DNA from: Bacteroidota bacterium | Lineage (GTDB): Bacteria; Bacteroidota; Bacteroidia; Chitinophagales; Saprospiraceae | Assembly (NCBI GenBank): GCA_024276375.1 | Contig: JAJRXG010000350.1 | Coordinates: 1 to 32,748, forward strand | Length of the DNA: 32,748 nucleotides | Direction: 5' to 3' | Part shown: positions 14,461-32,748 of the stretch, piece after piece | Layout: every line of letters starts with the position of its first letter | How positions within the stretch are numbered: the first letter of the stretch is position 1 | Made by a program: the position numbers and the translations under genes | The notes under the pieces: model-generated | What the model saw: only the letters and a program-made list of their open reading frames with translations | What the model was told of the DNA's origin: nothing | Databases searched by the model: none

Positions 14461-15696
14461 TTAAGATAAATCAGCCTTGTTTGGAAGAGAAATCGTAAAC
14501 TGTGAGCCCACTCCCGGATTACTTACAAAGGAAATTTTTCCACCCACCAAGGTAAGGTATTGTCTAACAATATGAAGCCCTAAACCCGTCCCTTGAATAT
14601 TTTCGACGTTATTGGCTCTAAAAAACCTCGAAAACATATGCTTTTGATCCTCTTTAGGAATCCCTATCCCTTGATCTATGACATCTATGGTGATTTCTTG
14701 AGGCAAAAAAGTCACACTGCACCGAACCTCAGAACCCTCCGGAGAATACTTGATGGCATTGGAAAGTACATTGAACAACACATTGAGCAGGACTCTACGG
14801 TCTGTAACGATCCTATACATTTCTCCCGAGTGTTGGATGACAATCTGCTGGCCGCTTTTCAATAACCCTTCTAGGTCATCACTTGCCGCTTGACACAGAT
14901 GCAGTACATCTATGAGTTCATTTTTTACTTCTATTCTACCTTCATCCAACTTGCTGAGTGACAAGAAATCATTGAGAATGCCGGTCAGGTTGTCAACGGC
15001 GGATTTGATCCTATCGACATGTTTCATTCTTTTGTCGTGTTGCTCAACGGTGGTATATCGTGAGATCAGAGAGGCGGAAGACAAAATCGTACTCAAAGGG
15101 GTTCTAAACTCATGGGAGGCCATAGATACAAATCTAGATTTCAGTTCGTGAAGTTCTCGTTCATTCTCCAAGGCAATTTTGAGTTTAGCCTTACTTTCTT
15201 TCAAGGCTCGGTTTGTTGACAGCAATTTGTTGACCGTTGCTTCCAGCTCTAAGGTTCTTTTCTCTACCTCCTGTTCCAATCTGGAATTGGACGATTCAAG
15301 AGCTCTGCGGGCTGCGTTGACTTCACTTAGGTCATGGATTATGCCTGTAAAGATAGATCTGTTTTCCAGTTCGACATGACTCACAGCGAGTCTCAAAGGG
15401 AATATTTCACCATTTTTTCTTTGACCATATACTTCTCTCCCGATACCGACAATATGAGGTATCCTAGTACGGTGATACCGCTCGATATATTGATCATGAT
15501 TGGAACGATCCGGTTCAGGCATGAGCATGTTAATATTGCGCCCTATGACTTCAGATTCGTTATATCCAAACAAGATACAAGCAGCAATGTTAATAGATTC
15601 GACAAGTCCATTGGCATCGATTGTGATAATACCATCAATAGCCGTGCTGATGATAGCTTGTAGCATCTTGGTTACATCATTTGTGGATTGATTCAT
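14461..15696 (-). CDS. FixL-like heme-PAS sensor histidine kinase
   Basis: The frame opens at a TTG (15723), but the first ATG, at 15696, is chosen, giving 411 residues. A single PAS domain (about 10-125) aligns without gaps to the FixL heme domain. The proximal heme ligand is His 67 (SNHDQY). R206, H214, I215 and R220 of Bradyrhizobium FixL are matched by Arg 73, His 81, Ile 82 and Arg 87 (PHIVGIGR), and distal Leu 236/Ile 238 by Leu 103/Val 105. A coiled coil (about 125-180) links it to the kinase: H-box ASHEFRTPL (His 195), N-box NVLSNAIKYS, G1 DQGIGIP and G2 GTGLGLHIV. There are no transmembrane segments, so it is cytoplasmic. The predicted job is to sense O2 and phosphorylate the receiver-Crp protein encoded next to it. 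Confidence 0.9.
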   Translation of the reverse strand: MNQSTNDVTKMLQAIISTAIDGIITIDANGLVESINIAACILFGYNESEVIGRNINMLMPEPDRSNHDQYIERYHRTRIPHIVGIGREVYGQRKNGEIFPLRLAVSHVELENRSIFTGIIHDLSEVNAARRALESSNSRLEQEVEKRTLELEATVNKLLSTNRALKESKAKLKIALENERELHELKSRFVSMASHEFRTPLSTILSSASLISRYTTVEQHDKRMKHVDRIKSAVDNLTGILNDFLSLSKLDEGRIEVKNELIDVLHLCQAASDDLEGLLKSGQQIVIQHSGEMYRIVTDRRVLLNVLFNVLSNAIKYSPEGSEVRCSVTFLPQEITIDVIDQGIGIPKEDQKHMFSRFFRANNVENIQGTGLGLHIVRQYLTLVGGKISFVSNPGVGSQFTISLPNKADLS

Positions 15697-15725
15697 TCGT
15701 TTTATTGTCTGTTTAATCGCCAATA

Positions 15726-15761
15726 TTGATGAGTATCATGCAGTATTATGATTCTTGTCAA
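15726..15761. promoter_or_regulatory. Paired Fnr/FixK-like boxes between kinase and CBS-USP genes
   Basis: Box 1 is TTGAT-GAGT-ATCAT (15726-15739, centre 15732.5). Box 2 is ATGAT-TCTT-GTCAA (15748-15761, centre 15754.5). The centres are 22 bp apart, about two helical turns. For the + strand CBS gene a -7-like CATATTTG lies at 15784-15791, which places the boxes near -42 and -64 of the inferred start, the classic activating position. For the - strand kinase one box would lie near -41 and the other across the core promoter, which would allow autoregulation. Confidence 0.72.
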
Positions 15762-15814
15762 CATTCTATGATCCCAGTAGCATCATATTTGACCACAAGA
15801 TAAACACGAGTTTT

Positions 15815-16264
15815 ATGAATCTACTTGCACCTGTATCCACAATTATGGCCAGAGAGTTAATTTCATTGGATCCTGAAGATACTCTTAAAAAGGCAGAAGA
15901 AATATTTGAGAATAATAAAATTCATCACATCCCAATTGTTAAAGAGGGATTGCTTGCGGGGATGTTATCCAAATCTGATTTTTTGCATTTTAAGCAAGGG
16001 TTTCACAAAGTCAATACGGAGGAAAAATGGGAGTTGTTTAGACTGAAATCCCATCAAGTAAAGGAGATTATGACTTCAAGACTTGCCAAGTTAGAGCCTT
16101 CAGACCGAATCAACGTCGCCATTGAGGTATTTAAAGAGAACTTGTTTCATGCCCTTCCTGTTGTTGAACACGGAAAAATAGTAGGTCTTGTGACCACCTA
16201 TGACATTATAAAACATCTCGCTGAAGATAGAGAAACGATCAAAAAGTATAATAATGCCCAATAA
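15815..16264 (+). CDS. Two-CBS-domain protein
   Basis: The frame opens at a TTG (15755) that lies inside a regulatory box. The ATG at 15815 gives the natural start MNLLAPVSTIMARELISLDP and is preferred (149 residues). Two CBS motifs are present: the first about residues 6-65 (KIHHIPIVKEGLLAGMLSKSD), the second about 85-140 (LFHALPVVEHGKIVGLVTTYD). CBS pairs bind adenine nucleotides and usually report energy state; no attached effector domain exists here. The stop codon overlaps the universal stress protein start (TAATG), so translation is likely coupled. Its position behind the paired Fnr-like boxes suggests induction by low oxygen. Confidence 0.88.
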   Translation: MNLLAPVSTIMARELISLDPEDTLKKAEEIFENNKIHHIPIVKEGLLAGMLSKSDFLHFKQGFHKVNTEEKWELFRLKSHQVKEIMTSRLAKLEPSDRINVAIEVFKENLFHALPVVEHGKIVGLVTTYDIIKHLAEDRETIKKYNNAQ

Positions 16265-17409
16265 TGTCTGTAGTTGTCAAAATATATGGAAAGGAGACCT
16301 CCTTGTTTCAATTTGTTAAATACGTCTTTACAGCGTATAGAGAGAAGTATCCCATTGCATTTGATATTGTCGAAGTCAATGACTTAGATCGTATTATTGC
16401 CGATGGTATTGAGGTTATACCTTCTATTTCTATCAATGAATCTGTAATCGCTTATCAAGGAGATATCTCAATGGAGGCCTTTGCTAAGCAGGCCATTCGG
16501 TTGCTTCTAAAAGAGACAGACTATAGTGGATTGCTCAAGATACTGTCACCTACGGACTTTTCGGATCCTTCTATCAATGCTATAAACTATGCCAAATCTC
16601 TAGGTGTCGAATTAGATGCCTTGGTAAGGATCATCCATGTAGATCAAGCTACACCAATCGTTGCCGATAGCGTCATGGCAATAGAGTATTATCATGAAAA
16701 CCAAAAGCGTGAACACCTCGATATTGTTGCAGCTCCTCTATCGGATACTATCGGAGATGATATTCTTACAATTCCGATCGAATCAGAGTATGTTCAGGGC
16801 ATCACAACAGATGTTCTGCTTGAAAAATCCATGAATTTTGATCTGATCGTCATGGGTACAACAGGAACCAATAATTTAGTCACCAAGTGGCTCGGTTCGA
16901 TATCGCGTACTATGCTAAAAAAAGCCAATTGTCCCGTACTTGTTGTGCCTCCCAATGCTGTCTATAAAAAAGTCAAAAATATTGTCTTTGGCTATAGCCC
17001 GTCACCACTAGATAGCAAAAATATCGAATCTGTCTTTCGTTGGGCCAATTTGCTCAATGCTCGTATCCATGTAGTCCACGTAGCTAAGCGACATACAAAT
17101 CTCAAATCTACGGATGAAATATCGCAATACATTGGTCATCAGTATCCGGGTCAAAAGGTTTCTTATCGTACCATTCAGGCCAAATCTACAGATGAAGGCC
17201 TACTTCATATCGCCCATGAAGTAGGTGCTGAACTTCTCATCCTTGCCAAAAAAGAAAAATCACTCTGGCAATACCTCCGACAGGGAAGCCAAACAGAGCA
17301 AATGTTGCCCATAATGGATATTCCGATGCTTGTATTGCACAATACCCTTAAGAAATGTACTTGCGGAGGAGAATGCAAGAAAAAAGGAGATTCCAAATGT
17401 GATCATTAA
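16264..17409 (+). CDS. Tandem universal stress protein with thioredoxin-like N-domain and Cys-rich tail
   Basis: The protein has 381 residues. Residues 1-85 look like a small thioredoxin/glutaredoxin fold without cysteines (MSVVVKIYGK, then VIPSISINESVIAYQG where redox versions have the cis-proline loop). The first Usp domain (about 88-230) has the ATP motif G-x2-G-x9-G-S at Gly 198, Gly 201, Gly 211 and Ser 212. The second Usp domain (about 235-360) lacks it. The tail has Cys 365, 367, 371 and 379 plus His 381 (CTCGGECKKKGDSKCDH), a likely metal-binding knuckle. Tandem Usp proteins are typical targets of Fnr, Anr and Dos-type anaerobic regulators. It overlaps the CBS gene by one base and is translated after it. 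Confidence 0.85.
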   Translation: MSVVVKIYGKETSLFQFVKYVFTAYREKYPIAFDIVEVNDLDRIIADGIEVIPSISINESVIAYQGDISMEAFAKQAIRLLLKETDYSGLLKILSPTDFSDPSINAINYAKSLGVELDALVRIIHVDQATPIVADSVMAIEYYHENQKREHLDIVAAPLSDTIGDDILTIPIESEYVQGITTDVLLEKSMNFDLIVMGTTGTNNLVTKWLGSISRTMLKKANCPVLVVPPNAVYKKVKNIVFGYSPSPLDSKNIESVFRWANLLNARIHVVHVAKRHTNLKSTDEISQYIGHQYPGQKVSYRTIQAKSTDEGLLHIAHEVGAELLILAKKEKSLWQYLRQGSQTEQMLPIMDIPMLVLHNTLKKCTCGGECKKKGDSKCDH

Positions 17410-17431
17410 CTCAAATACCTCTTAGTTAATG
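17404..17431. terminator. Hairpin between convergent USP and TauE-like genes
   Basis: CATTAACT (17404-17411) pairs perfectly with AGTTAATG (17424-17431) around a 12-base loop. The stems contain the stop codons of both converging genes. There is no T-run directly after the stem, only GGGTTTTTT from 17442 on the + strand, so this may be a 3'-end stabilising hairpin rather than a strong terminator. Confidence 0.45.
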
Positions 17432-18124
17432 ACAAAGAATCGGGTTTTTTATAGCAGACAAAAAATCCAGTTCCATGGGCATGTCCACAACCCATCCACG
17501 ATAGATCAAAAATATGCCCAACACTAAATGCAGGAGAGGAAAGATTTTTTTATACTGTCCTTGTGGACGCCATTTTATCATAGATACACCAAAATGGATA
17601 CTGAGCATCATCGGCAATGTCCCTAGGCCAAAGGCCACCATAAAAGCCATTCCTGTCAATGCACTTCCTGTCGTCAATGATCCCATCAACGCCAAGTAAA
17701 CCAATCCGCACGGCAATATGGCATTCAATATACCCAAGACAAAAGGATGACGCTGTGCCAAAGAAGAGAATGTCCGTGTCAAGTGCTGCTGAAACTTCCT
17801 AAATACCCGCTGATACTTCTTGGATTTAAATATCAGGGTTTCAAGATCTATCGTGAACAAAAACAATACAACCAGAAAGATGCCACTTGTAATGGTAATG
17901 GTTTTCTGAAATCCACTTATCGCCAATACCTTGCCCAACAAACCAAACATTATACCCATAAAACCATAGGTCAATACGCGACTAAAATGATACAATAAAC
18001 CATGAATCCATCTGTTGACAATACCCGATCTAATATTGCTTGCCACTCCCAACACCAAGGGTCCACACATACCCAAGCAATGCAAGCTACCGGCAAACCC
18101 CAACCCAAAAGCCAAAGCAATCAT
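17426..18124 (-). CDS. TauE/SafE-DsbD-like membrane protein of the cbb3 cluster
   Basis: This 232-residue polytopic membrane protein has about six helices. The N-terminal motif LHCLGMCGPL (Cys 16, Cys 20) and the mid-protein motif NAILPCGLVY (a conserved Pro-Cys in a helix) are the marks of the UreH/DsbD_2-like group annotated as sulfite exporter TauE/SafE. Members sit next to ccoG/ccoH in many genomes and are thought to take part in copper or thiol handling during cbb3 assembly; the exact job is not established. The start codon overlaps the ccoH stop (ATGA, 18121-18124), so it is the last gene of the cco operon. Confidence 0.85.
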   Translation of the reverse strand: MIALAFGLGFAGSLHCLGMCGPLVLGVASNIRSGIVNRWIHGLLYHFSRVLTYGFMGIMFGLLGKVLAISGFQKTITITSGIFLVVLFLFTIDLETLIFKSKKYQRVFRKFQQHLTRTFSSLAQRHPFVLGILNAILPCGLVYLALMGSLTTGSALTGMAFMVAFGLGTLPMMLSIHFGVSMIKWRPQGQYKKIFPLLHLVLGIFLIYRGWVVDMPMELDFLSAIKNPILCH

Positions 18125-18576
18125 GGTCTCTCAATATAAAGCGGAATCTCTAAATAATACTTATTCTTGATCGTATCTACCCAATGTACTTTCATCACCC
18201 AATTGCCCATCGCCAATTGATTGGCGTCGATATTGAAGTCTCCTGAGTCGTCTCCATTTTTTAGATCAAATGACCGATCCATCGCTTTGTCAGAGGGTCT
18301 GTACAACACTCCGTAAACATCACGGACAACCTGATCTCCAAAGTCAATGGTAATCCGATTGCTTAAGGCACTAAACTCGATCATAGGTCGATGCCCCTCA
18401 AGGAGTCCATTGGAATATGCATCGTAACGATCTTGATAGGCAAGGTCGAGCGCATAATAATCGTCAATGACCAAACTATGATCCACCGTTCGGGACACTA
18501 GCACAGTACCAATCAAATAACCGATATAAAGAACAAAAAAGATCACAAGCCCATATCCCCAATGAAATTTTTTCAT
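18121..18576 (-). CDS. ccoH: cbb3 oxidase assembly protein CcoH/FixH
   Basis: The protein has 151 residues. One N-terminal membrane helix (about 7-28, YGLVIFFVLYIGYLIGTVLV) is followed by a periplasmic domain with the FixH-type pattern: an YYALDLAYQDRYDA segment after the helix, FSALSNRITIDFG, then VYGVLYRPSDKAMDRSFDL and GNWVMKVHW near the end. CcoH is a single-span protein needed for stable assembly of the cbb3 subunits. It is 6 bases downstream of ccoG and overlaps the next gene by 4 bases. Confidence 0.9.
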   Translation of the reverse strand: MKKFHWGYGLVIFFVLYIGYLIGTVLVSRTVDHSLVIDDYYALDLAYQDRYDAYSNGLLEGHRPMIEFSALSNRITIDFGDQVVRDVYGVLYRPSDKAMDRSFDLKNGDDSGDFNIDANQLAMGNWVMKVHWVDTIKNKYYLEIPLYIERP

Positions 18577-18582
18577 AGTCTT

Positions 18583-20004
18583 TTACCTTACAGGACCTAA
18601 AAAGGTCGTTGAAAAATTGTCTAAGACCTTATCACCAACTCTCGCGGTCAATTTGATTTTGGTCTTCCGTCCTTTCAATACTGTTGCAGGTATTTTAATA
18701 AATAGCGCTCCTTCGGTGTTTTCATTGCTTTCAGCACGAGGTTTTTGACCCACAAATTCTACAACTGCTTCATCTATATTTTCTATTCTAAAATCGATGT
18801 CATACTCACTATCGGCTTTGTTGATGAGCTGATAATTATAAAGATTACTGATCACCCCGGGCTCCAATTCTTGATATAACATTCCCGGTGTACGAAGCAA
18901 TAACACCTCTACCTCGGAACGACCTATAAATAAAAACGCTTCAAGAATCATCAGAACAACAAGTATGGCACTATAGCCAAGAGATCGAGGAGTGATCAGT
19001 GCATTTATATTTTCGGTGATACCTACAAGACTATCGATTCTAATAAGTCCTTTAGGGCGCTTGATTTTTTCCATCACTTCATCACAGGCGTCCATACATG
19101 CAGTACAATTAACGCACTCAAGTTGAATCCCATCGCGGATATCTATACCCGTAGGACATACTTGAACACAGAGACCACAATCGATACAATCACCCTTGCT
19201 TGATTGCTCTGTACCTCTCTTGATTCTAGCTCGGGGCTCTCCCCGGACAAAGTCATACTGTACGGCTAGACTATTCTTATCCAATAACACGCCTTGCAAT
19301 CTCCCATAAGGACAAATAGTAGTACAAACTTGCTCTCGTAATATGGAAAAAACAAAATAAAATGAAAATGAAAAAACCAACATCGCAACAAATCCCGAAG
19401 TATGTTGGCTGATTGGATCTGTGATAATATTTAACACTTTATCCATCCCAATAAAATAAGCGAGAAATGTATTGGCAATGAGAACTGCTATACCAAAAAA
19501 AATAGCCTCTTTACTGATCTTCTTAATGATTTTGCCAGTATCCCAAGGAGCTTTTCTCAACCTGCGTTGCGCCTTGGAGTCACCTTCAATCCAATATTCG
19601 ATACGACGATACACCATCTCCATAAATATAGTCTGAGGGCAGATCCATCCACAAAAAACACGTCCAAAAACAACCGTAAAAAGAGCGATGAAAACAATCC
19701 CAATAAGCATCGCCACGACAAAAATATGGAAATCCTGAGGTGTAAAAAACACGCCAAAAATCCTAAACTTGCCGTCCATAAAGTTGAACAGAAACATAGG
19801 TTCACCATTGTGCTTCAACCATGGCAACCCAAACAATACTATGAGTAATAAATAGGAAACAATCTTGCGGTAATTGTAGAACTTTCCCTTTGGTTTTTTG
19901 GGAAAAATCCAAATTCGCTTTCCGGACTTATCTACAGTTGCGAGAGAATCTCTATATGCCTCTGTATCTTTAAAGTCGTCCTCATTAGTAGCATTGTCAA
20001 TCAC
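18583..20004 (-). CDS. ccoG: cbb3 oxidase accessory ferredoxin-type protein CcoG
   Basis: The protein has 473 residues and a GTG start; no in-frame ATG is available before the conserved YRDSLATVDKSGKR segment. Membrane helices lie near 48-64, 92-114, 165-188, 198-220 and 340-355. The CGWIC motif (Cys 118, Cys 122) heads a row of conserved PQTIFMEMVYRRIEYWIEG residues. CTTICPYGRLQG lies near 225, and two 4Fe-4S motifs follow (CIDCGLCVQVCP near 270 and CVNCTACMDAC near 295). The C-terminal third is an Ig-like periplasmic domain. CcoG is reported to reduce Cu(II) to Cu(I) for the CuB site of CcoN. It follows ccoP by 42 bases. Confidence 0.94.
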   Translation of the reverse strand: MIDNATNEDDFKDTEAYRDSLATVDKSGKRIWIFPKKPKGKFYNYRKIVSYLLLIVLFGLPWLKHNGEPMFLFNFMDGKFRIFGVFFTPQDFHIFVVAMLIGIVFIALFTVVFGRVFCGWICPQTIFMEMVYRRIEYWIEGDSKAQRRLRKAPWDTGKIIKKISKEAIFFGIAVLIANTFLAYFIGMDKVLNIITDPISQHTSGFVAMLVFSFSFYFVFSILREQVCTTICPYGRLQGVLLDKNSLAVQYDFVRGEPRARIKRGTEQSSKGDCIDCGLCVQVCPTGIDIRDGIQLECVNCTACMDACDEVMEKIKRPKGLIRIDSLVGITENINALITPRSLGYSAILVVLMILEAFLFIGRSEVEVLLLRTPGMLYQELEPGVISNLYNYQLINKADSEYDIDFRIENIDEAVVEFVGQKPRAESNENTEGALFIKIPATVLKGRKTKIKLTARVGDKVLDNFSTTFLGPVR

Positions 20005-20046: not shown

Positions 20047-20940
20047 CTATTCGGGTATATACAGTTCTCCTTCTTTTGCCTTGGGATTGGGGGGTGAAGT
20101 ACCTTGAAGGGTTAAAATATAACTTGCCACTTGTTGCATTGTTTCGGGCTTCAACTGAGATTTCCAAGATATCATACCTTTCTCCGGAACACCGTATTTT
20201 ATAGTTTCAAAAACATTCTTGATTCCTCCTCCTTTCAACCAATAATCATCTGTAAGATTGGGACCTACCAATCCCTGACCTTCGACGCCATGACAGGCTG
20301 CACAATTTCTCTTAAAAACAGCCGCACCTGCGGACAAATCCTCCGGATCTGTCAATGCTACGACATTGTTTTCGTTTATGGCATTGGCCATTTTATCGAG
20401 ATAAGCATTCTTGATCTCATCCCCCGCTTTCATTTCAGCTATGTATTCATTTTCAGAACTCCATCCACTACCAGACCAATGATACTGATACATATAAATC
20501 ACGGCAAAAATCATAGAACCATACATCAACCCCAACCACCAAGGTGGCAATTTGTTGTCCAATTCTCTGATACCATCAAAATCATGGCCCAAGTCTATAC
20601 TCTTTTCGGCAGAAACAGGCACAAGATCCCATGCCCAATCATTGATACGCTTCCACAAGGGCACCTCCTCGTCCATCACAGATGTGCTTTTGGCAACAAT
20701 CCCTTTTTCTTCCAAGAGTTGCCTACTTTGGGCTTCCAGCATTTTTCTAATGATATCAGAAATCACCCATATGGCAAAAAGAAAAACCAAGAGGCCAATG
20801 ACCAAAATAATGTTTTCAACGATCCATGATCCTGCTGATTTGCTATGCCCGAGGGAAGCCTCTTGTCCCTGTCCGATTGTTACTAACAGCAATAGACTCA
20901 ACAATGCAGTCCCTTTTCTTTTTAATTTAGTGGAATTCAT
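20047..20940 (-). CDS. ccoP: cbb3 oxidase subunit III (CcoP), mono-heme form
   Basis: The protein has 297 residues. The N-terminus has a signal-like helix (13-24), a second helix (about 40-65) and a third (about 135-152). The CcoP N-terminal signature DFDGIRELDNKLPPWW is at about 119-134. A cytochrome c domain follows with one CAACHG heme site and the Met-ligand region EKGMISWKSQL. Classic CcoP carries two CxxCH sites; only one is present here. With the single site in CcoO the complex would hold two c-hemes rather than three. It passes electrons from periplasmic donors to CcoO. It starts 12 bases after ccoQ. Confidence 0.93.
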   Translation of the reverse strand: MNSTKLKRKGTALLSLLLLVTIGQGQEASLGHSKSAGSWIVENIILVIGLLVFLFAIWVISDIIRKMLEAQSRQLLEEKGIVAKSTSVMDEEVPLWKRINDWAWDLVPVSAEKSIDLGHDFDGIRELDNKLPPWWLGLMYGSMIFAVIYMYQYHWSGSGWSSENEYIAEMKAGDEIKNAYLDKMANAINENNVVALTDPEDLSAGAAVFKRNCAACHGVEGQGLVGPNLTDDYWLKGGGIKNVFETIKYGVPEKGMISWKSQLKPETMQQVASYILTLQGTSPPNPKAKEGELYIPE

Positions 20941-21150: not shown

Positions 21151-23262
21151 TTATTTGGGTCTGGCATCAACACCTAGACGTTGCAGATATGCGATTAATG
21201 CAACGATTTCCTTTTGCGCTAAGTTCTCCTGATCGATACCATCAGCAGCCAAATTCTCTACAATCACTTGTGCTTGAGCTGACAAGTCATCAAGAGCAAT
21301 ATCAGCGTAGCCATGTTCATATGGCACTCCTAGGGTCTGCATAACCCTGATTTTGGCAGCCGTATATTTTGTATCCAAATCATCCTTCGCGAGCCAATCA
21401 TATGCCGGCATTATAGAGCCCGGAGACATGGAGGTTGGATCAATCATGTGATTGTAATGCCAACTATCAGGATACTTGCCTCCCAATCGATGCAAATCCG
21501 GACCTGTTCGTTTAGATCCCCAGAGATGAGGGAAGTCATTGACAAATTCTCCTGACTTACTAAAATCTCCATACCGTTCGGTTTCCGATCGAAAAGGTCT
21601 AATCATCTGCGAATGACAGTTATTGCAACCTTCGCGAATGTATATATCTCTGCCCTCCAATTCTAGCGGAGTATATGGTTGTACCGATGCGATCTTGGGC
21701 ACATTCTTGTCGATAAATACCATCGGCAGGATTTCTATGATACCTCCTATCAGTACTAAAACAGTTGCTAACAATAACATCTGTATTGGTTTTCTTTCGA
21801 TCCACTTATGCCAATATTCTCCTTTTTCCTTTATATGTTTCTCTCTTGGAGGATAAGCAACTTCTTTGTCCTCCACTCTATGTCCCTTGGCTGTCATATA
21901 GAGATTGTAAATCATCAAGATGGCTCCCAAGAGGTAAATTGTTCCTCCTATACCACGTATGGCATACATCGGTATAATCTGTGTGACGGTCTCTAAAAAG
22001 TTGCCATACTTCAAAAAACCTTCAGGAGTAAATGCCTTCCACATCATACTCTGTGTCCATCCCGCCCAGTACATCGGTACTACATAGAATACTGTACCCA
22101 ATGTCGCAATCCAAAAATGAGCGTTGGCCAACTTCACAGAATGTAGTTTCGTACTATACAGTCTCGGAATCAACCAATACAACATACCAAAGGTCAACAT
22201 CCCATTCCACCCCAATGTACCTACGTGCACGTGGGCCACAGTCCAGTCTGTATAGTGACTGATCGCATTGATGCTCTTGATAGCAAGAAGAGGACCCTCA
22301 AGGGTGGACATACCATATGCCGATACTGCTACAACAAAAAACTTTAGGATCGGATCTGTACGTACCCTATCCCATGCACCTCTCAAAGTCAATAGGCCGT
22401 TGAGCATCCCTCCCCAAGAGGGTGCGATCAACATCAATGAAAAAACCGTACCCAAGCTTTGTGCCCAATCCGGCAACGAAGTATAAAGCAAGTGGTGAGG
22501 TCCTGCCCAAATGTAAATAAAGATCAACCCCCAAAAATGAATTATCGATAGTTTGTACGAATACACAGGTCTCTTGGCCGCCTTCGGCAAAAAGTAATAC
22601 ATCAGCCCCAAATACGGTGTGGTCAGAAAGAAAGCCACTGCATTATGTCCATACCACCACTGCACCAAAGCATCTTGAACTCCGGCAAATACCGGAATGC
22701 TGTCCATGATGGAGACAGGAATCTCCAAACTCCTGACGACATGCAATACTGTCACCGTAACACAAGTCGCTATATAAAACCAAATAGCAACATATAAATG
22801 CTGCTCCCTTCTTTTTATCAATGTACCAAACATATTGACTCCAAAAGCAATCCATACGAGTGCAATAGCGATATCAATAGGCCACTCTAATTCTGCATAT
22901 TCATGAGATGATGTTAAACCCAAAGGCAAGGAGATCGCTGCTGCTACAATAATCGCCTGCCATCCCCAAAAATTAAAACTAGATAGAAAATTGCTCCACA
23001 TCCGTGCCTTGAGCAATCGCTGGAGAGAATAATAAGTGCCTGCAAAAATTCCGTTTCCTACAAATGCAAAAATCGCCGCATTGGTATGCAACGGCCGCAA
23101 TCGACCAAATGTTAATTCCGGAAGCACATTGAGCGATGGAAAAACCAATTCAAAGGCTACATATACTCCTACAAGCATGGCTACCACTCCCCAAACGGCA
23201 GTTGCAATGGCAAAATTTCTTACGATTTTATCATCGTACTTAAAGATATCTTTCTGATTCAT
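21151..23262 (-). CDS. ccoN: Fused cbb3 oxidase subunits CcoN-CcoO
   Basis: The protein has 703 residues. The CcoN part (about 1-460) keeps the low-spin heme ligand His 59 (RPLHTN), CuB ligand His 206 (WWYGHN), the cross-linked Tyr 250 (IFIYIW), the His 256/His 257 pair (AGPHHLLY), the proton-path Glu 322 region (TLEGP) and heme ligands His 344 and His 346 (VAHVHVG). The CcoO part (about 480-703) starts with a membrane helix (493-514), then heme-c site GCNNCHSQ (Cys 546-His 550) and Met ligand 618 (GSIMPAYDWL). Separate genes encode CcoN and CcoO in proteobacteria; the fusion is common in Bacteroidota. It is a high-affinity, proton-pumping terminal oxidase for low oxygen. It follows ccoS by 5 bases. 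Confidence 0.97.
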   Translation of the reverse strand: MNQKDIFKYDDKIVRNFAIATAVWGVVAMLVGVYVAFELVFPSLNVLPELTFGRLRPLHTNAAIFAFVGNGIFAGTYYSLQRLLKARMWSNFLSSFNFWGWQAIIVAAAISLPLGLTSSHEYAELEWPIDIAIALVWIAFGVNMFGTLIKRREQHLYVAIWFYIATCVTVTVLHVVRSLEIPVSIMDSIPVFAGVQDALVQWWYGHNAVAFFLTTPYLGLMYYFLPKAAKRPVYSYKLSIIHFWGLIFIYIWAGPHHLLYTSLPDWAQSLGTVFSLMLIAPSWGGMLNGLLTLRGAWDRVRTDPILKFFVVAVSAYGMSTLEGPLLAIKSINAISHYTDWTVAHVHVGTLGWNGMLTFGMLYWLIPRLYSTKLHSVKLANAHFWIATLGTVFYVVPMYWAGWTQSMMWKAFTPEGFLKYGNFLETVTQIIPMYAIRGIGGTIYLLGAILMIYNLYMTAKGHRVEDKEVAYPPREKHIKEKGEYWHKWIERKPIQMLLLATVLVLIGGIIEILPMVFIDKNVPKIASVQPYTPLELEGRDIYIREGCNNCHSQMIRPFRSETERYGDFSKSGEFVNDFPHLWGSKRTGPDLHRLGGKYPDSWHYNHMIDPTSMSPGSIMPAYDWLAKDDLDTKYTAAKIRVMQTLGVPYEHGYADIALDDLSAQAQVIVENLAADGIDQENLAQKEIVALIAYLQRLGVDARPK

Positions 23263-23501: not shown

Positions 23502-23537
23502 GTGACTAAAGTCAAGTATAGAACTGATCTAAATCAA
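23502..23537 (-). promoter_or_regulatory. Paired Fnr/FixK-like boxes upstream of ccoS
   Basis: Read on the - strand: TTGAT-TTAG-ATCAG (23537-23524, centre 23530.5) and TTGAC-TTTA-GTCAC (23515-23502, centre 23508.5). Each is one base from a perfect TTGAY-N4-RTCAA palindrome, and the centres are 22 bp apart. They lie in the 123-base gap between ccoI and ccoS, about 50-90 bases before the ccoS ATG. Confidence 0.8.
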
Positions 23538-23573: not shown

Positions 23574-25997
23574 TCATGCTCTATCTCCCGATTTTACAGA
23601 ATAAAATTTATACAATAATGTGGTTGACAACAGCCCATACAAAATCACGGATATGCTACTCGCAGGCATCAATATCGCCGCAACAATCGGTGATAGCTTA
23701 CCTTGAACCGCAAACCACAAACCAATCACATTGTAAAATGCCGCAAAGGCAAAAGCTCCATACAACACCCATCGAGCTCTGTTGACAAATCCAAACAATC
23801 TATCAAACTCCGCAAATGAGTTAATACTCAAAATAATATCACATGCTGGCGAAAAAAATTGGTCGTCCTGAGCTATCACAACTCCTACGTCACTTTGCTT
23901 CAACGCCCCGGCATCATTCAACCCATCACCTACCATCATTACAATAGCTCCTTGCTCCCGGAGAGATTGGATATAGTTGAGCTTGTCTTGTGGTGATTGA
24001 TTGAAAAGCAATTCAGAATCAGAAGGAAACAATGCCTCCATTTGCTCCAGCTCATGTGCATTGTCTCCAGAGAGGAGATCCACCCTTAGGTTCCGATCGG
24101 CCAATTTGCCAAGGATAGAGCTCATATTGGGACGGATGGGATTGTCAAAATGGTATCGCCCCAAAACACGTCCATCGATCTCTATCAATACGGTTGTTTG
24201 ATCGATCTCCGTATCTGTGTCCAAAATAAACGAAGACGAACCCAAGCGCACTTCCCGTCCTGCTATCATACCACCGGTACCCCGTCCCACTTCCTCCTTA
24301 AAATTATCAATCCGCAATAGAGGTGTCTCATGAAAATTATCCACTATCGCTCGGCTCAAGGGATGATATGACTGTGATGCCAAGGTAAAGATGATCGATT
24401 TATCTTCTTCACTTAATGGTGTTCCTTCATATTGCACATCTGACGAACGCGTATCCGTTATCGTCCCCGTTTTATCAAAAACTACTCGATCGACCTCTGT
24501 CAATCGCTCTATTACTGCCGTATTTTTACAATATATCCCATCGTGAGACAACAGTCGGATGACATTGCCATAAATAAATGGTATCGCCAATGCCAATACG
24601 CAAGGACATGCGACAATCAACACAGCTGTAAAACTCTGAAAAGCAATATCTCTATCTATACTCCACCAATATATCAATGTCCCTAGGCTCACCAGTAAAA
24701 TAAAAAGTGTAAAGTACTTACCGATCTGATTGATGAACACAGAGGTATGTGTCGCTGAAGGATCGCCAAATATCTCCTCCTGCCATAATTGTGTGAGATA
24801 CCCTCGATCTGCTTCCTTGGTGACACGCAACTGTATTGCCCCTCCACACTGCTTCCCTCCAGCATATACCTCTTGATCGGTAGAGAGGGTCACAGGTCTA
24901 GATTCTCCCGTCACAAAACTATAATCTACATACCCTACACCATCTTCTATATAGCCATCGCAAGGGATCACTCCCTGATGCTTAATCCTTATGACATCTC
25001 CTTGTTGCACTTTGTCCACGGCTGTCGATGTCCAACTATCTCCCTCTAACTTAGCAACCGCGATCGGGAAGAAAGAACGATAATCATGATCAAAGGATAT
25101 ATGCTGAAAAGTATATTGCTGAAACCATCTCCCCACCAATAAGAAAAAAATAAAGCCTCCCAAACTATCCAGATATCCATCTCCTGTATGCGATAAAATC
25201 TCATATATACTCCTCAAAAACAAGGTTAGCATCCCTATTGCTATCGGAATGTCTATACCTATGACCCGGGCGTATAGACTCTTATACGCAGATATCAGAT
25301 AATCTCTGCCACTATAGAACAGTAAGGGAATAGACAAGAATATATTGATATAACTCAGTATCCGCACCCAATCTGCACGAACTACCCCCAGATACTCTGG
25401 AAAACTCAGCAACATTATATTGCCAAAACAAAATCCCGCAACACCGATCTGATAAATCAACTTCTTGTCCGTTAACCGCTCAGAGGCGTCCTTGGATTGT
25501 ACAAGACTCTTGAGATTCAATCGGGGGCCATACCCTATGCGATCTAAAAGCTCCACGATTGATCTTAGATTGATCTGACTTTCGTCAAATACAATGCTTG
25601 CTTTCTTTTTTAGAAAATTGACACGGCATGAACGAATACCGGGATTTAATCGATCGATATGCTCCAACAACCAGATACACGCAGAACAATGGATCTGAGG
25701 TATATCTAAACTTATTTTGACAATGCCCTCATTCCGAAAACTACTAAAATGGTGTAACACCATAGGATCATCCAAAAAACCAAAATCCTCCTCCGATACA
25801 GACTTGCTTCTGTTGATCCCCACCATATCTTCAACGCTATAATACGCGTCTAACCCATGGGCAGACAATAGAAGATATACCATCCGACATCCTTCACAAC
25901 AAAAACGCAAGTCCCCTTCCGTTGGATCTCCTTCTCTACACGGTTCTCCACAGTGATAACAGGAGACCTTAGTATCTGTATCTATGGATTGCTTCAT
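23574..25997 (-). CDS. ccoI: Copper P-type ATPase of cbb3 assembly (CcoI/FixI)
   Basis: The frame opens at 26024, but that start lies inside the promoter element at 26018-26025, so the ATG at 25997 is chosen (807 residues). The N-terminus has a cysteine-rich knuckle (CYHCGEPC ... CCEGC, about 13-37), then a heavy-metal-associated domain with CSAC (Cys 104, Cys 107). Membrane helices frame the CPC ion motif (464-466). The phosphorylation loop DKTGT has Asp 508, with TGES and GDGLNDAG further marks of P1B ATPases. This type moves Cu(I) for the CuB site of cbb3 oxidases rather than for copper resistance. Its stop is 36 bases before the paired boxes that serve ccoS. Confidence 0.95.
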   Translation of the reverse strand: MKQSIDTDTKVSCYHCGEPCREGDPTEGDLRFCCEGCRMVYLLLSAHGLDAYYSVEDMVGINRSKSVSEEDFGFLDDPMVLHHFSSFRNEGIVKISLDIPQIHCSACIWLLEHIDRLNPGIRSCRVNFLKKKASIVFDESQINLRSIVELLDRIGYGPRLNLKSLVQSKDASERLTDKKLIYQIGVAGFCFGNIMLLSFPEYLGVVRADWVRILSYINIFLSIPLLFYSGRDYLISAYKSLYARVIGIDIPIAIGMLTLFLRSIYEILSHTGDGYLDSLGGFIFFLLVGRWFQQYTFQHISFDHDYRSFFPIAVAKLEGDSWTSTAVDKVQQGDVIRIKHQGVIPCDGYIEDGVGYVDYSFVTGESRPVTLSTDQEVYAGGKQCGGAIQLRVTKEADRGYLTQLWQEEIFGDPSATHTSVFINQIGKYFTLFILLVSLGTLIYWWSIDRDIAFQSFTAVLIVACPCVLALAIPFIYGNVIRLLSHDGIYCKNTAVIERLTEVDRVVFDKTGTITDTRSSDVQYEGTPLSEEDKSIIFTLASQSYHPLSRAIVDNFHETPLLRIDNFKEEVGRGTGGMIAGREVRLGSSSFILDTDTEIDQTTVLIEIDGRVLGRYHFDNPIRPNMSSILGKLADRNLRVDLLSGDNAHELEQMEALFPSDSELLFNQSPQDKLNYIQSLREQGAIVMMVGDGLNDAGALKQSDVGVVIAQDDQFFSPACDIILSINSFAEFDRLFGFVNRARWVLYGAFAFAAFYNVIGLWFAVQGKLSPIVAAILMPASSISVILYGLLSTTLLYKFYSVKSGDRA

Positions 25998-26017
25998 AAT
26001 CGATTCTCCTGTTGTCA

Positions 26018-26041
26018 CAAACATAGTTGACTTCTAACTAT
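26018..26041 (-). promoter_or_regulatory. ccoI promoter element with overlapping palindrome
   Basis: The - strand has a perfect -7 match TATGTTTG (26025-26018), 20 bases before the ATG. Overlapping its upstream edge is the palindrome ATAGTT-N7-AACTAT (26023-26041), which could be an operator for a copper- or redox-responsive regulator. No Fnr-like box is seen at the activating distance, so ccoI is probably controlled differently from ccoS. Confidence 0.5.
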
Positions 26042-26195: not shown

Positions 26196-26231
26196 ATGAC
26201 TAATATCATAGATCCTTATGACATAGGTCAA
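26196..26231 (+). promoter_or_regulatory. Paired Fnr/FixK-like boxes upstream of hemN
   Basis: ATGAC-TAAT-ATCAT (26196-26209, centre 26202.5) and ATGAC-ATAG-GTCAA (26218-26231, centre 26224.5). The centres are again exactly 22 bp apart. A -7-like GATCTTTG lies at 26255-26262, which would start transcription almost at the hemN ATG (26269). Confidence 0.75.
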
Positions 26232-26268
26232 GATAATCAATCACAATACTATATGATCTTTGGGATCA

Positions 26269-27624
26269 ATGGATACACACAACGCCCTATGGCACAAATA
26301 CAACGTTCCGGTACCGCGATATACGAGCTATCCCGCTGTACCTAACTGGAGTCAATCGATCCCTTCAGATGCTGAATGGATGCAATCAGTAAATAATAGT
26401 TTGAAAAAAGATCGACATCTGAGTATATATATTCACTTGCCCTTCTGCGAACAACTATGTACTTACTGCGCTTGCAACAAACGTATCACCAAAAATCATA
26501 AAGTAGAATCCCCCTACATAAATACGCTCCTCCAAGAGTGGCAATTCTATATTTCTAATCTCAAAGAAAAACCCATCCTGCAAGAATTGCATTTGGGAGG
26601 AGGGACTCCCACTTTTTTTAATCCGGAAGAACTGGAGCGACTGATCGGGACAATCATATCTTCTGTTGAGGTTGCTGATACAGCGGCTTTTGCATTTGAA
26701 GCACATCCAGATTCTACCAGTGAAGAACACTTGAAGACCTTGTACCAATTGGGCTTCAAGCGCATCAGTATCGGTGTCCAAGATATTTCAACGCGTATCC
26801 TTGAAGCTATCAATAGAAAGCAGACAATAGATCAAGTTCTCCAAGTCACTAACAAAGCAAGAGAGATCGGATATCAATCGATCAATTATGATATCATCTA
26901 TGGGCTACCGTTTCAAGATGAAGACAATATCCGACAGACGATGAAGCTAATCGAAAAAATGATGCCCGATCGACTGGCCTTTTATGCTTATGCGCATGTC
27001 CCTTGGAAAAGCAAAGGGCAACGTGCATTTACCAAGCACGATATCGCCCACGGACTTGAAAAACATAATCTGAAACTACTCGGTGAGAGGTTGCTCCGAC
27101 AAATGGGATACTATGCCATCGCCATGGATCACTATGCGCTGGCAACTGATTCCTTGTTTCATTCCTACGCTTCGGGTCAACTGCATCGCAATTTTATGGG
27201 ATTTACAGATAGCAAGACCAACTGTCTGATCGGATTGGGCAATTCCGCTATCTCCGATAGCGGTACCATGTATATCCAAAATGAGAAAGGCGTAGAAACA
27301 TATGAAGAAAAAATCCAACAGGGAGGTCTCGCCATCATAAAAGGACATACATTGTCTGAATCTGAAAAGAGAGTTAGAGAACATATCCTCAACCTCATCT
27401 GCAACGACCAAACCAAATCTAATGGAGATCAACTAGATCAGGCCATCCTTATCCCAGCGATACAGCGGTTGTCAGAACTCATCCATGATGGCCTCGTTAT
27501 CGTACATCACAATCAGATCAAGATCACCGATCCGGGCAAGCCATTTGTTCGTAATATCTGTGCCAAGTTAGATCCATACCTCGATCAACCTACAACCAAG
27601 AATCGGTATAGCATGTCGATATAA
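26269..27624 (+). CDS. hemN: Oxygen-independent coproporphyrinogen III oxidase
   Basis: The frame opens at a TTG (26260), but the ATG at 26269 is preferred (451 residues). The radical SAM cluster motif CEQLCTYCAC (Cys 60, 64, 67 and 69) is the HemN type C-x3-C-x2-C-x-C. Other HemN features are KYNVPVPRYTSYP at the start, HLGGGTPTFFNPEEL, RISIGVQD, NYDIIYGLPFQ and the substrate-loop segment FMGFTDSKTNCLIGLG. It decarboxylates coproporphyrinogen III to protoporphyrinogen IX without oxygen, feeding heme supply when oxygen is low; the cbb3 oxidase and the heme-PAS kinase both need that heme. The paired boxes upstream predict control by the same regulator as ccoS. Confidence 0.95.
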   Translation: MDTHNALWHKYNVPVPRYTSYPAVPNWSQSIPSDAEWMQSVNNSLKKDRHLSIYIHLPFCEQLCTYCACNKRITKNHKVESPYINTLLQEWQFYISNLKEKPILQELHLGGGTPTFFNPEELERLIGTIISSVEVADTAAFAFEAHPDSTSEEHLKTLYQLGFKRISIGVQDISTRILEAINRKQTIDQVLQVTNKAREIGYQSINYDIIYGLPFQDEDNIRQTMKLIEKMMPDRLAFYAYAHVPWKSKGQRAFTKHDIAHGLEKHNLKLLGERLLRQMGYYAIAMDHYALATDSLFHSYASGQLHRNFMGFTDSKTNCLIGLGNSAISDSGTMYIQNEKGVETYEEKIQQGGLAIIKGHTLSESEKRVREHILNLICNDQTKSNGDQLDQAILIPAIQRLSELIHDGLVIVHHNQIKITDPGKPFVRNICAKLDPYLDQPTTKNRYSMSI

Positions 27625-29593: not shown

Positions 29594-31833
29594 TCACTGA
29601 GCGACAATATAAAATACCTGAATCTCTTCATTTCCGTCTTCATCCACAACAGTGACTCTATGCTCTCCAATAGAAGGTTGAATAGCCATCGTATGCCATT
29701 CTTTTGTTTTGCCAAGATACTTCTCGTCAAGATACCAAAAGATTTTCTTCTGGGGATCTTGATGTACAACTTCGACGACTAACTTTTGGCGATGACCATT
29801 GAGATCCACCGGCAACAATATTTGGTCTCCATATCCCGGATAAACAAATGACAGAACCTCGCGGCTCAGGGACTCATTGGTACAAGAAGGGTGCAAAGGA
29901 GGTATGCCCCGATAAGAAGGGTGATTGCTCCGATAGTAACTAGCGGCAATCGGATCCATCTCAAAAAAAACCTCCCAATGTCCCTCAATCGATTCGCTGC
30001 ACCACTCATTGAGGCTATATTGTCCATCTGCTTGTACATACTGAGGTTTATGAAACGTACAGATCGAAGCCCTCTGTACACTGGAAGCTAGAGACAATGT
30101 GTCCCATCGTGGGCAATTGACTCCAGCCAAGAATCCCGTTTCGGAACACAATGACATCCACTGCATATCGATATATGGAGGATCAAACCACTGACCCGAC
30201 AACTCAAGATGATTGACAATCCTAAAGAGCAACTTGCCCGCAGTTGTTGAACCAACAATACCTTCACGTCCCTCACCATCCGCATTGCCCACCCATGCTG
30301 CGATGACCACTTCAGGTGTTACACCAACCGCCCAAGCATCTCGATGACCATAACTCGTGCCAGTCTTCCAAGCAATCGGAATGGAAGAATCAAATCTCTT
30401 CCAATTTCCTTCTTCATCAGGACGATGTAGATCCAAAAGCGCCTCCAATGTGTGAAACGCAGCTCCTGCATTGAAAACCCCTCCTTCTTCATGAGATACG
30501 GATAGTGCCAAATTTCGATAAGCATATGCCAACTCCAACAGCGTCACTTCTCCACCACCCAATATTAAAGACAACCCATAATAATCAGGAGACCTCCCAA
30601 GTGTCGTTATATTCAGTTGCTTTAATCGCGTTAAGAACTTAGCGATCCCATATTGTTGCAGCATGAGCACGGCCGGTACATTGAGAGATCGTTGCAACGC
30701 CCTATCGGCCGCAATCATACCCGAAAATCGCTTGTGATAATTAGAGGGGCTAAACCCATCTATATATACAGGAACATCCCGTACCAACTCATACGGTGTA
30801 ATCAATCCTTAATCAATCATGGACGCATACAAGAAGGGTTTGAGAATAGAACCCGAACTACGATACGACTGTATCATATCGACATGAGGTTCATGCGCTG
30901 TCTCGGGTATATTGCCTGCATAAGCTATCGGCTGACCACTTTTAGTATCCAGTATAACTACTCCTGCATTATATATCTCATTCCACTCCACACCTTTCCA
31001 AGATCTCGCAAAGCAACATTGACATTTTTTTGGGTATTGCTTATTATGGAAGTTTGCTTCTTTAATTTTTTTTTCTTGCAATACTCAAGATAATGTGGGG
31101 CTTCTGACGGAAGTGCATGTATCCGATCTGGAAGTTTTTCTAAAACAGCCGACTCAAAATCCAATGAATCAATAATCTGGTCTGCTAACAATCTTCTTAA
31201 AAGATCATTGCGCTTCTTCAACAAAGCATCTCGATTTCTATTGATATGGATCAAACTTGGTGCATTGGGCAATACCGCCAAAGTTGCACACTCTGCCCAA
31301 GTGAGATTTTCTGGAGATTTGCCATAGTATCGCCAACTTGCCGCTGTCAATCCTACTACATTGCCACCAAATGGTGCCAAGGACACATACCAGCGCAATA
31401 TGGTTTCTTTATCATACCACAGACTCAATCTCCATGCAAGCCAAGCTTCGTATATCTTATTCTTCAAAGTCCGTGGAGGATGATGCCTCGACAAGCGAGC
31501 AAGTTGCATCGGTATCGTACTCGCTCCACTGACTACTTCTCCGGATCGCATATTGAGTCGTATAGCCCTCAATATTGCGAGAAGGTCTATTCCCACATGG
31601 CAATAGTAACGTCGATCCTCAAATGCAACAATAGAATATCCAAATCGCAATGGAACTTCATCAGCGATGGGCATACGCCATTGACCGTCATCAGCTATCT
31701 GAGCAGACAGCAAAACTCCATTTCGGTCCTCAACAATGGCACTATATGGCTGATCCAAAAATACCACATCAGGAGGCCAACATAAGAAGAATCCAATCAA
31801 GACAATAGATCCTATGGCCAAATACTGCTTCAC
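29594..31833 (-). pseudogene. pbpC: Penicillin-binding protein 1C, broken by frameshift and in-frame stop
   Basis: Restored, the gene would encode about 746 residues, the normal PBP1C length. Frame one (31833 to about 30990) has the membrane anchor and the GT51 glycosyltransferase (FEDRRYYCHVGID, SGASTIPMQLARL). Near 30980-31000 the homologous frame shifts: frame one reads ...LGKVW then runs to a stop at 30958, while the neighbouring frame continues EIYNAGVVILDTKSG. That second frame has the transpeptidase SxxK (SILK in RSSGSILKPF). A TAA stop at 30811-30809 then falls in frame where relatives have a codon such as Glu before GLITP. Beyond it, still in frame, come SLN (RSLNVPAV), KTG (WKTGTSYGHRD) and the C-terminal domain. 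All catalytic motifs survive, so inactivation is recent or one lesion is a sequence error. Confidence 0.82.
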
Positions 31834-32395: not shown

Positions 32396-32748
32396 TGGCC
32401 TTCTTTGCACTCATAAAGATGCGATCCCAATTCACACCTCCAAACAGGCTTCCGTCCTTAGTAGAAAACCAGATAAAGAGAGGCTTGCCCACAATATGAT
32501 CTGCAGGGACAAAACCCCAAGAACGTGAATCTTCTGAGTTATGACGGTTATCTCCCATGGCCCAATAGTAATCTTGATCAAAGGTATATCGATTGGTCTT
32601 CACTCCATCGATGATATATTGATCTCCATCAAGAGCAAAAGAGTGACCTTCATATACATTGATGATGCGTTTATACAGAGCTATGTTTTCTGGTGTAAGT
32701 GTGATGGTTACTCCCTTTTTCGGTATCCATATCGGTCCATAATTGTCA
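32388..32748 (-). CDS. lepB: Signal peptidase I, C-terminal part; 5' end outside window
   Basis: The frame is open to the window edge; about 119 residues are visible, so any start inside the window (for example the GTG at 32603) is not the real one. The visible part includes IWIPKKGVTITLTPEN, YIIDGVKTNRYTFDQDYYW and box E, MGDNRHNSEDSRSWG, which is diagnostic for SPase I. The catalytic Ser and Lys boxes lie upstream, outside the window. LepB removes signal peptides from exported proteins at the inner membrane. The spacing between the box-D side and box E is long, as is usual in Bacteroidota LepB. Confidence 0.93.
   Translation of the reverse strand, partial: DNYGPIWIPKKGVTITLTPENIALYKRIINVYEGHSFALDGDQYIIDGVKTNRYTFDQDYYWAMGDNRHNSEDSRSWGFVPADHIVGKPLFIWFSTKDGSLFGGVNWDRIFMSAKKASE

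Follow-up and report, generated by a model that had tools for sequence, protein, structure and literature searches.

The window (the whole stretch of DNA analysed here, 32,748 nucleotides of contig JAJRXG010000350.1 in the Saprospiraceae assembly GCA_024276375.1) encodes a FixL-like sensor histidine kinase, directly followed by the gene of a protein that joins a receiver domain to a CRP-type DNA-binding module (hereafter the fusion, or RR-CRP), and carries in the upstream regions of fixL, ccoNO and copA/hemN three pairs of TGA-N6-TCA palindromes (Table 1). We consider it probable that the two proteins work as a shortened FixL-FixJ-FixK cascade, in which a FixL-like heme PAS kinase controls the adjacent fusion, and the fusion binds to paired operators and activates the genes behind them. 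The sequence-only reading of this DNA had predicted a FixL-type heme sensor of oxygen outside Proteobacteria: the FixL-type heme PAS is strongly supported (by sequence, predicted fold and phylogeny), its occurrence there is not exceptional, and the partner protein and the paired operators had been overlooked.

Table 1. Positions of the genes, domains and paired boxes discussed in the text
Feature	Positions	Strand	Remarks
Receiver (Response_reg) + cNMP_binding fold + Crp-type HTH (RR-CRP), 347 aa	13407..14450	-	next gene downstream of kinase
FixL-like sensor histidine kinase	14461..15723	-	PAS-linker-HisKA-HATPase_c; 420 aa from TTG; ATG alternative start 15696
FixL-type heme PAS domain (predicted heme), residues 20-140	15304..15666	-	sequence match, model, tree
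Paired box (TGA-N6-TCA twice, spacing 22 bp)	15727..15760		fixL/CBS divergent region
Two-CBS-domain protein	15755..16264	+	divergent from fixL; true start probably ATG 15815
Universal stress protein (Usp)	16264..17409	+	
DsbD_2 family membrane protein, probably cbb3 biogenesis	17426..18124	-	
FixH	18121..18576	-	
CcoG/FixG	18583..20004	-	405 bits, cut-off 316.7
CcoP-like subunit	20047..20940	-	115 vs equivalog cut-off 180, below
CcoN-CcoO fusion of cbb3 oxidase	21151..23262	-	1233 bits, cut-off 1080
Paired box, 22 bp apart	23503..23536		upstream of ccoNO
P-type ATPase, heavy-metal (CopA/CcoI) type	23574..26024	-	above general P-type cut-off, below heavy-metal subfamily cut-off
Paired box, 22 bp apart	26197..26230		copA/hemN divergent region
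HemN, oxygen-independent coproporphyrinogen III oxidase	26260..27624	+	364 bits, cut-off 325

The kinase and its neighbourhood

The kinase gene proved to be a real open reading frame, and the ATG formerly taken as its start corresponds to residue 10 of the protein. The cbb3 and hemN genes, whose proximity had been part of the argument for an oxygen switch, are confirmed as well: the CcoN-CcoO fusion, CcoG and HemN score above their cut-offs, the CcoP-like subunit scores below its own, and FixH is also present. A promoter and terminator scan came out near chance (43 against 38.1 and 10 against 9.5 expected). At 29594-31833 we observed that the transglycosylase and BiPBP_C domains of an apparent penicillin-binding protein 1C are divided over two ORFs, which may reflect a frameshift, an assembly error or a real split.

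The receiver-CRP fusion

Beside the kinase no FixJ- or NarL-type partner was found; its neighbour is the fusion, in which a receiver (Response_reg, 90.9 bits) is joined to a cNMP_binding fold (66.7 bits) and a Crp HTH (57.9 bits), the last two above their Pfam cut-offs. The receiver possesses the acidic pair, a predicted phospho-Asp (position 52), Thr82 and Lys104, and the HTH contains the motif KETLIR. Among the 110 related loci L002-L111, which include the window itself, 107 have the fusion, and there it mostly adjoins the kinase or stands near it (it is divergent in L028). Several loci of the whole collection are probably duplicates of one contig (e.g. L008/L034 and L042/L113), so that locus counts are not independent events. 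One of the three loci without the fusion (L042) lies on a contig that is apparently that of G121, with the fusion elsewhere on it. Asp52 and Lys104 are invariant in all 107 fusions, position 82 is Thr (105) or Ser (2), and Glu312 and Arg316 of the recognition helix, which we take to be the positions that read the TGA half-site in CRP, are likewise invariant. The phosphate-cassette positions differ from those of CRP (as we assume them to lie for this comparison), and the set of four cysteines that holds the Fe-S cluster of FNR is missing: the window fusion has a single Cys between residues 130 and 347, and 104 of the 107 loci have none to two. Among the best 60 of 319 PDB matches, no chain matched both halves of the protein.

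At the level of the class, all 21 genomes with the PAS (at E <= 1e-38) carry the fusion, and 35 more have the fusion without a PAS at that threshold (a count that leaves out two receiver-only matches in the phylum, G280 and G331). We argue that the adjacent fusion is the likely partner of the kinase, and that it could combine the roles of FixJ and FixK. The own genome of the window encodes a further Crp-type regulator with a Cys-rich N-terminus (CDYDCHSC; L161, C159:1918-2133) by an apparent di-heme peroxidase (by eye), which from its sequence may be an Fe-S or NO sensor.

Paired boxes at a spacing of 22 bp

The window contains 11 copies of the palindrome TGAYNNNNRTCA, where 4.9 are expected, and six of them make up the three pairs of Table 1, each exactly 22 bp apart; when the 22 single boxes of the window were placed at random, at least two such pairs arose in 3 of 20,000 placements. 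The 80 named loci (1.50 Mb) are the best 80 of 576 from a scan in which the FG Arg was part of the search patterns, so that pocket conservation is partly built into them. They hold 68 TGA-N6-TCA pairs at 22 bp, as against 0-4 at each of the other spacings between 12 and 60 bp; at least one such pair is found in 48 of the 80, and none of the 68 is buried deep in an ORF with 150 or more residues. A gene of the query set follows 28 of the pairs (FixL 21, CcoNO 2, HemN or CopA 4, CcoG 1), and of the other 40, 31 lie within 450 bp of the start of a different ORF (150 aa or longer) and 9 have no such ORF. Among those 31 are a recurrent ORF between fusion and HemN in Mucilaginibacter and its kin, and Usp- and BON-like proteins (by eye). 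A 22-bp pair was also seen before an apparent fermentative D-lactate dehydrogenase ORF (by eye), between fusion and HemN, in L043, L054, L057 and others near position 12220, and in L047 at 6202.

The boxes have TGA-N6-TCA as their common core. Single copies of it precede ccoNO in 14 of 16 loci, where 2.4 would be expected, and single TGAY-N4-RTCA boxes precede FixL in 32 of 62 (4.2 expected), whereas the HemN genes of the named loci are not enriched in the single box upstream (2 of 44 against 3.0 expected); these expectations are rough, as the loci are related and themselves supplied the background. The canonical FNR-type box TTGAY-N4-RTCAA was rejected as the common motif, being too rare (upstream of at most one gene per class, with 0.0-0.2 expected). 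In the window, unpaired perfect TTGAT-N4-ATCAA palindromes were noted at 31241-31254 (inside the transglycosylase ORF) and at 32619-32632.

On a larger scale, 395 genomes of the phylum were scanned for the 22-bp pair and the fusion, and the class-level table was restricted to 98 of them (omitting the other 297, which lie outside the class). In the 56 that have the fusion, 228 pairs at 22 bp were counted (at least one in 44 genomes, none exact in 12). The 42 that lack it contain 28 pairs (at least one in 12 genomes), and three genomes of a single family account for 15 of these. A Mann-Whitney test on the pair numbers gives P 4e-8, relatedness ignored. Since the same 56 genomes contain 56 pairs with a spacing of 23 bp and 60 with one of 27 bp, chance would supply about one pair per genome and the excess at 22 bp is about fourfold, with the reservation that 27 is a multiple of three (coding phase may raise it) and that 23 may include some real pairs. 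These two spacings served as better chance baselines than the reversed pattern, which gave no pair in the own genome and 3 in the 56 genomes, and which understates chance because the forward single box TGAY-N4-RTCA itself outnumbers its reversed form (630 copies to 125 in the own genome). The 35 fusion genomes without the PAS have as many pairs (141, about 4 per genome), so that the boxes are associated with the fusion and not with the heme sensor. The highest number was met in one genome of the order (G447), with 29 paired boxes (the next highest being 18), of which 8 of 9 listed places are on contig C21 together with its fusion.

In the own genome 10 pairs show the spacing of 22 bp, against a single pair at 23 bp and two at 27 bp. 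Apart from the three in the window, one of the ten stands upstream of a run of cytochrome c, lipoprotein and NosZ genes (NosZ 911 bits, cut-off 625), and another upstream of cytochrome c and COX1-family genes that look like NorC/NorB, with no match to a NorB model above its cut-off; others precede two Usp genes, two CBS proteins (one site) and a porin-like ORF (by eye). The pair on contig C95 has no convincing target, and one or two of the ten may be due to chance. NosZ, Nor, Usp and CBS genes are a set to be expected for low oxygen and denitrification. It is in our view unlikely that the heme of the PAS would report NO or redox state in place of O2, with the fusion as a denitrification or nitrosative regulator: the pairs by NosZ and the NorC/NorB-like genes would suit such a role, yet of the 171 PAS rows that the profile picked up in the loci, 156 combine the FG Arg with the hydrophobic residues on the distal side (many of the loci were chosen for these very residues), and within the stretches examined a HemN or a cbb3 gene accompanies 48 of the 80 named loci (HemN 44, cbb3 29). 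Both kinds of gene rise with O2 limitation.

That some other CRP/FNR protein reads the paired boxes, the fusion acting elsewhere, appears to us distinctly unlikely. The own genome offers candidates, as it has five matches to PF13545 (HTH_Crp_2), that is four Crp-type HTH proteins besides the fusion, one of them with a Cys-rich N-terminus; however, both Glu and Arg at the TGA-reading positions (presumed from CRP) are found by eye in the fusion and in none of those four. Two further points speak against a separate reader and for the fusion as the protein that binds the pairs: their numbers track its presence across genomes, and 21 of the 68 pairs of the named loci stand before the kinase gene.

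The FixL-type PAS domain

The best match of the kinase in the PDB (phmmer) is FixL of Bradyrhizobium (1dp6, E 5.6e-32), followed by that of S. meliloti (1d06, E 2.3e-25), and the first heme PAS of a non-FixL kind is E. coli Dos (1v9y, E 1.2e-11). The resemblance to FixL goes beyond chance. As had been proposed, the alignment with 1dp6 is ungapped over the heme region (kinase residues 21-140 against 6-125) and all pocket residues are in register: the proximal His76, Arg82, His90, Ile91, the FG Arg96, Leu112 and Val114 (previous numbers plus 9) correspond to what we take to be H200, R206, H214, I215, R220, L236 and I238 in Bradyrhizobium. Val at the Ile238 position also occurs in FixL of S. meliloti and in FixL-like PAS domains of five other alphaproteobacterial records (L163-L168). 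Presumably R220 contacts O2 in FixL, and positions 206 and 214 are those that we take to contact the heme propionates. For the rhizobial FixL equivalog of NCBIfam (NF041777) the kinase reaches 164.2 bits, below the cut-off of 850.

An AlphaFold2 model of the PAS, built from an alignment of 17 sequences (the window and 16 relatives), has a mean pLDDT of 87.2 and a pTM of 0.79, and Foldseek ranks 1-20 are all FixL chains (rmsd 0.9-1.6), ahead of all other PAS domains among the matches listed. Next comes DosP, a heme PAS of the same family with a different output (about 30 percent identity, against 45-48 for FixL). The predicted fold is thus nearer to FixL than to other PAS domains, with the model weakest in the FG loop that bears Ile91 and Arg96 (mean pLDDT 62 over residues 71-80, below 50 at 74-76); as the model contains no heme, what it shows is the fold and not the distal geometry. 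In the phylogeny with FixL, one of the checks that the sequence-only reading had named, a branch with 100/99 support separates 39 pocket-bearing PAS rows (24 of the window's class, 7 from phylum genomes outside the class and 8 alphaproteobacterial) from seven look-alikes (46 rows in all). The rows of the window's class group at 84/93, below the strict mark, and the alphaproteobacterial rows do not make a single group. To judge by its sequence, the window PAS is a member of the FixL heme family, probably in a lineage of its own.

The full pocket (H200, I/V215, R220, L236, I/V238) defines the 156 rows mentioned above, and the 15 without it are look-alikes in 8 cases and in 7 either fragments or second copies of the PAS. 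A PAS that is apo or binds a different ligand, with the FixL sequence retained by descent, would accord with the fact that heme is predicted here from sequence and model, and with a related class, devoid of the FixL-type residues at 215, 236 and 238, that is also carried by kinases near the fusion (L023, L024, L026, L028-L031). We hold it to be very improbable, as H200, I/V215, R220, L236 and V/I238 are constant in all 22 rows of the pocket class, down to 38 percent PAS identity, while the equivalents of Arg206 and His214 drift among the relatives; Arg220 alone is not diagnostic, since Arg stands there in 4 of the 7 look-alikes too. A coincidence of the general PAS fold, which is common and abundant, can practically be dismissed in view of the phmmer match and the Foldseek ranking. 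Sequence, predicted fold and phylogeny strongly support a FixL-type heme PAS in the kinase; heme binding is predicted, and we infer, on sound grounds, that O2 would control the kinase.

The location of such a sensor outside Proteobacteria is as it had been described and is far from exceptional, given that the PAS profile finds a match at E <= 1e-38 in 69 of the 395 genomes of the phylum (profile matches, in part of which the pocket residues were checked). With PAS kinases of this kind widespread in the phylum, the sensor taken by itself adds one more member to a known type. The bare idea of FixL-like heme PAS domains outside Proteobacteria is not new either: in one survey of PAS domains, FixL and DosP fall in one cluster, in which about 60 percent of the sequences keep the His and are taken as possible heme binders (PMC10468136), and a metagenome study names fixL in a genome treated under Ignavibacteria and Phycisphaerae (PMC9083452).

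Sensors other than the FixL-type PAS occur with the same output. The second PAS class noted above keeps His at 200 and has Arg at 220 in 4 of 7 cases, and in its loci the sensor seems to have been swapped while the fusion stays. In Pontibacter a relay (L085:9953-14415) is formed by a double heme-PAS kinase, a lone receiver, a receiver-kinase (same HisKA, with a receiver replacing the PAS) and finally RR-CRP, and thus still ends in the fusion; this pattern was detected by tblastn in 15 of the 80 named loci and read through in L085.

Proposed mechanism and relation to known systems

In the cascade that we propose, O2 bound to the heme and held there by Arg96, which corresponds to R220, would keep the kinase off. 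At low O2 the kinase would autophosphorylate His204 and pass the phosphate to Asp52 of the fusion, which would then bind the box pairs as two neighbouring dimers and activate the genes for the cbb3 oxidase, the copper ATPase and HemN, denitrification and stress functions, together with its own operon. With a spacing of 22 bp, or about two turns of the helix, the two dimers would lie on almost the same face of the DNA, and their receivers would be near enough to touch.

The kinase resembles FixL of Bradyrhizobium and Sinorhizobium in its heme pocket residues, PAS fold, HisKA-HATPase architecture and link to cbb3, and differs from it in having one PAS, no membrane segment (by eye), a neighbour other than FixJ and a PAS group of its own (at the support given above). 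FixJ is part of the FixL-FixJ-FixK cascade, in which, as in the hFixL-FxkR-FixK cascade, an O2-sensor kinase leads to a CRP/FNR-type activator of cbb3 genes (for the latter, PMC7888657). Unlike in both, receiver and CRP/FNR-type activator are here one protein, the transcriptional step between them is gone, and the candidate operators are paired. If our reading is true, two proteins replace the three proteins and one transcriptional step of FixL-FixJ-FixK.

With CRP, FNR, FixK and DNR the fusion shares the cNMP_binding fold, the Crp HTH and TGA...TCA palindromes near its targets, but its input is a receiver in the same ORF. A 2026 analysis describes the CRP/FNR family as one-component and without response-regulator domains (PMC12937710); control by phosphorylation would, if true, run against that definition. 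Among the matches listed for FixL in Bacteroidetes/Bacteroidota, receiver-CRP fusions and FNR boxes there (titles and abstract beginnings, with most subscription papers outside the scope), neither the pair nor the operator was described.

On balance we lean towards a more general proposition, namely that many Bacteroidota run low-oxygen respiration through a phosphorylation-driven CRP/FNR protein, in which the receiver takes the place of cAMP or an Fe-S cluster, two dimers at 22 bp (perhaps bridged by their receivers) would be the active complex, and the sensor is interchangeable (heme FixL PAS, other PAS or Pontibacter-type relay). It would provide an explicit candidate for the oxygen switch of a large bacterial group, and a recognisable operator would let low-oxygen and nitrous-oxide-reduction regulons be read from genomes.

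Outside the class, in the three loci inspected (L127:1081-3182, L132:171-2796 and L133:1144-3295), the heme PAS sits on another type of kinase beside a NarL-like regulator (types by eye).
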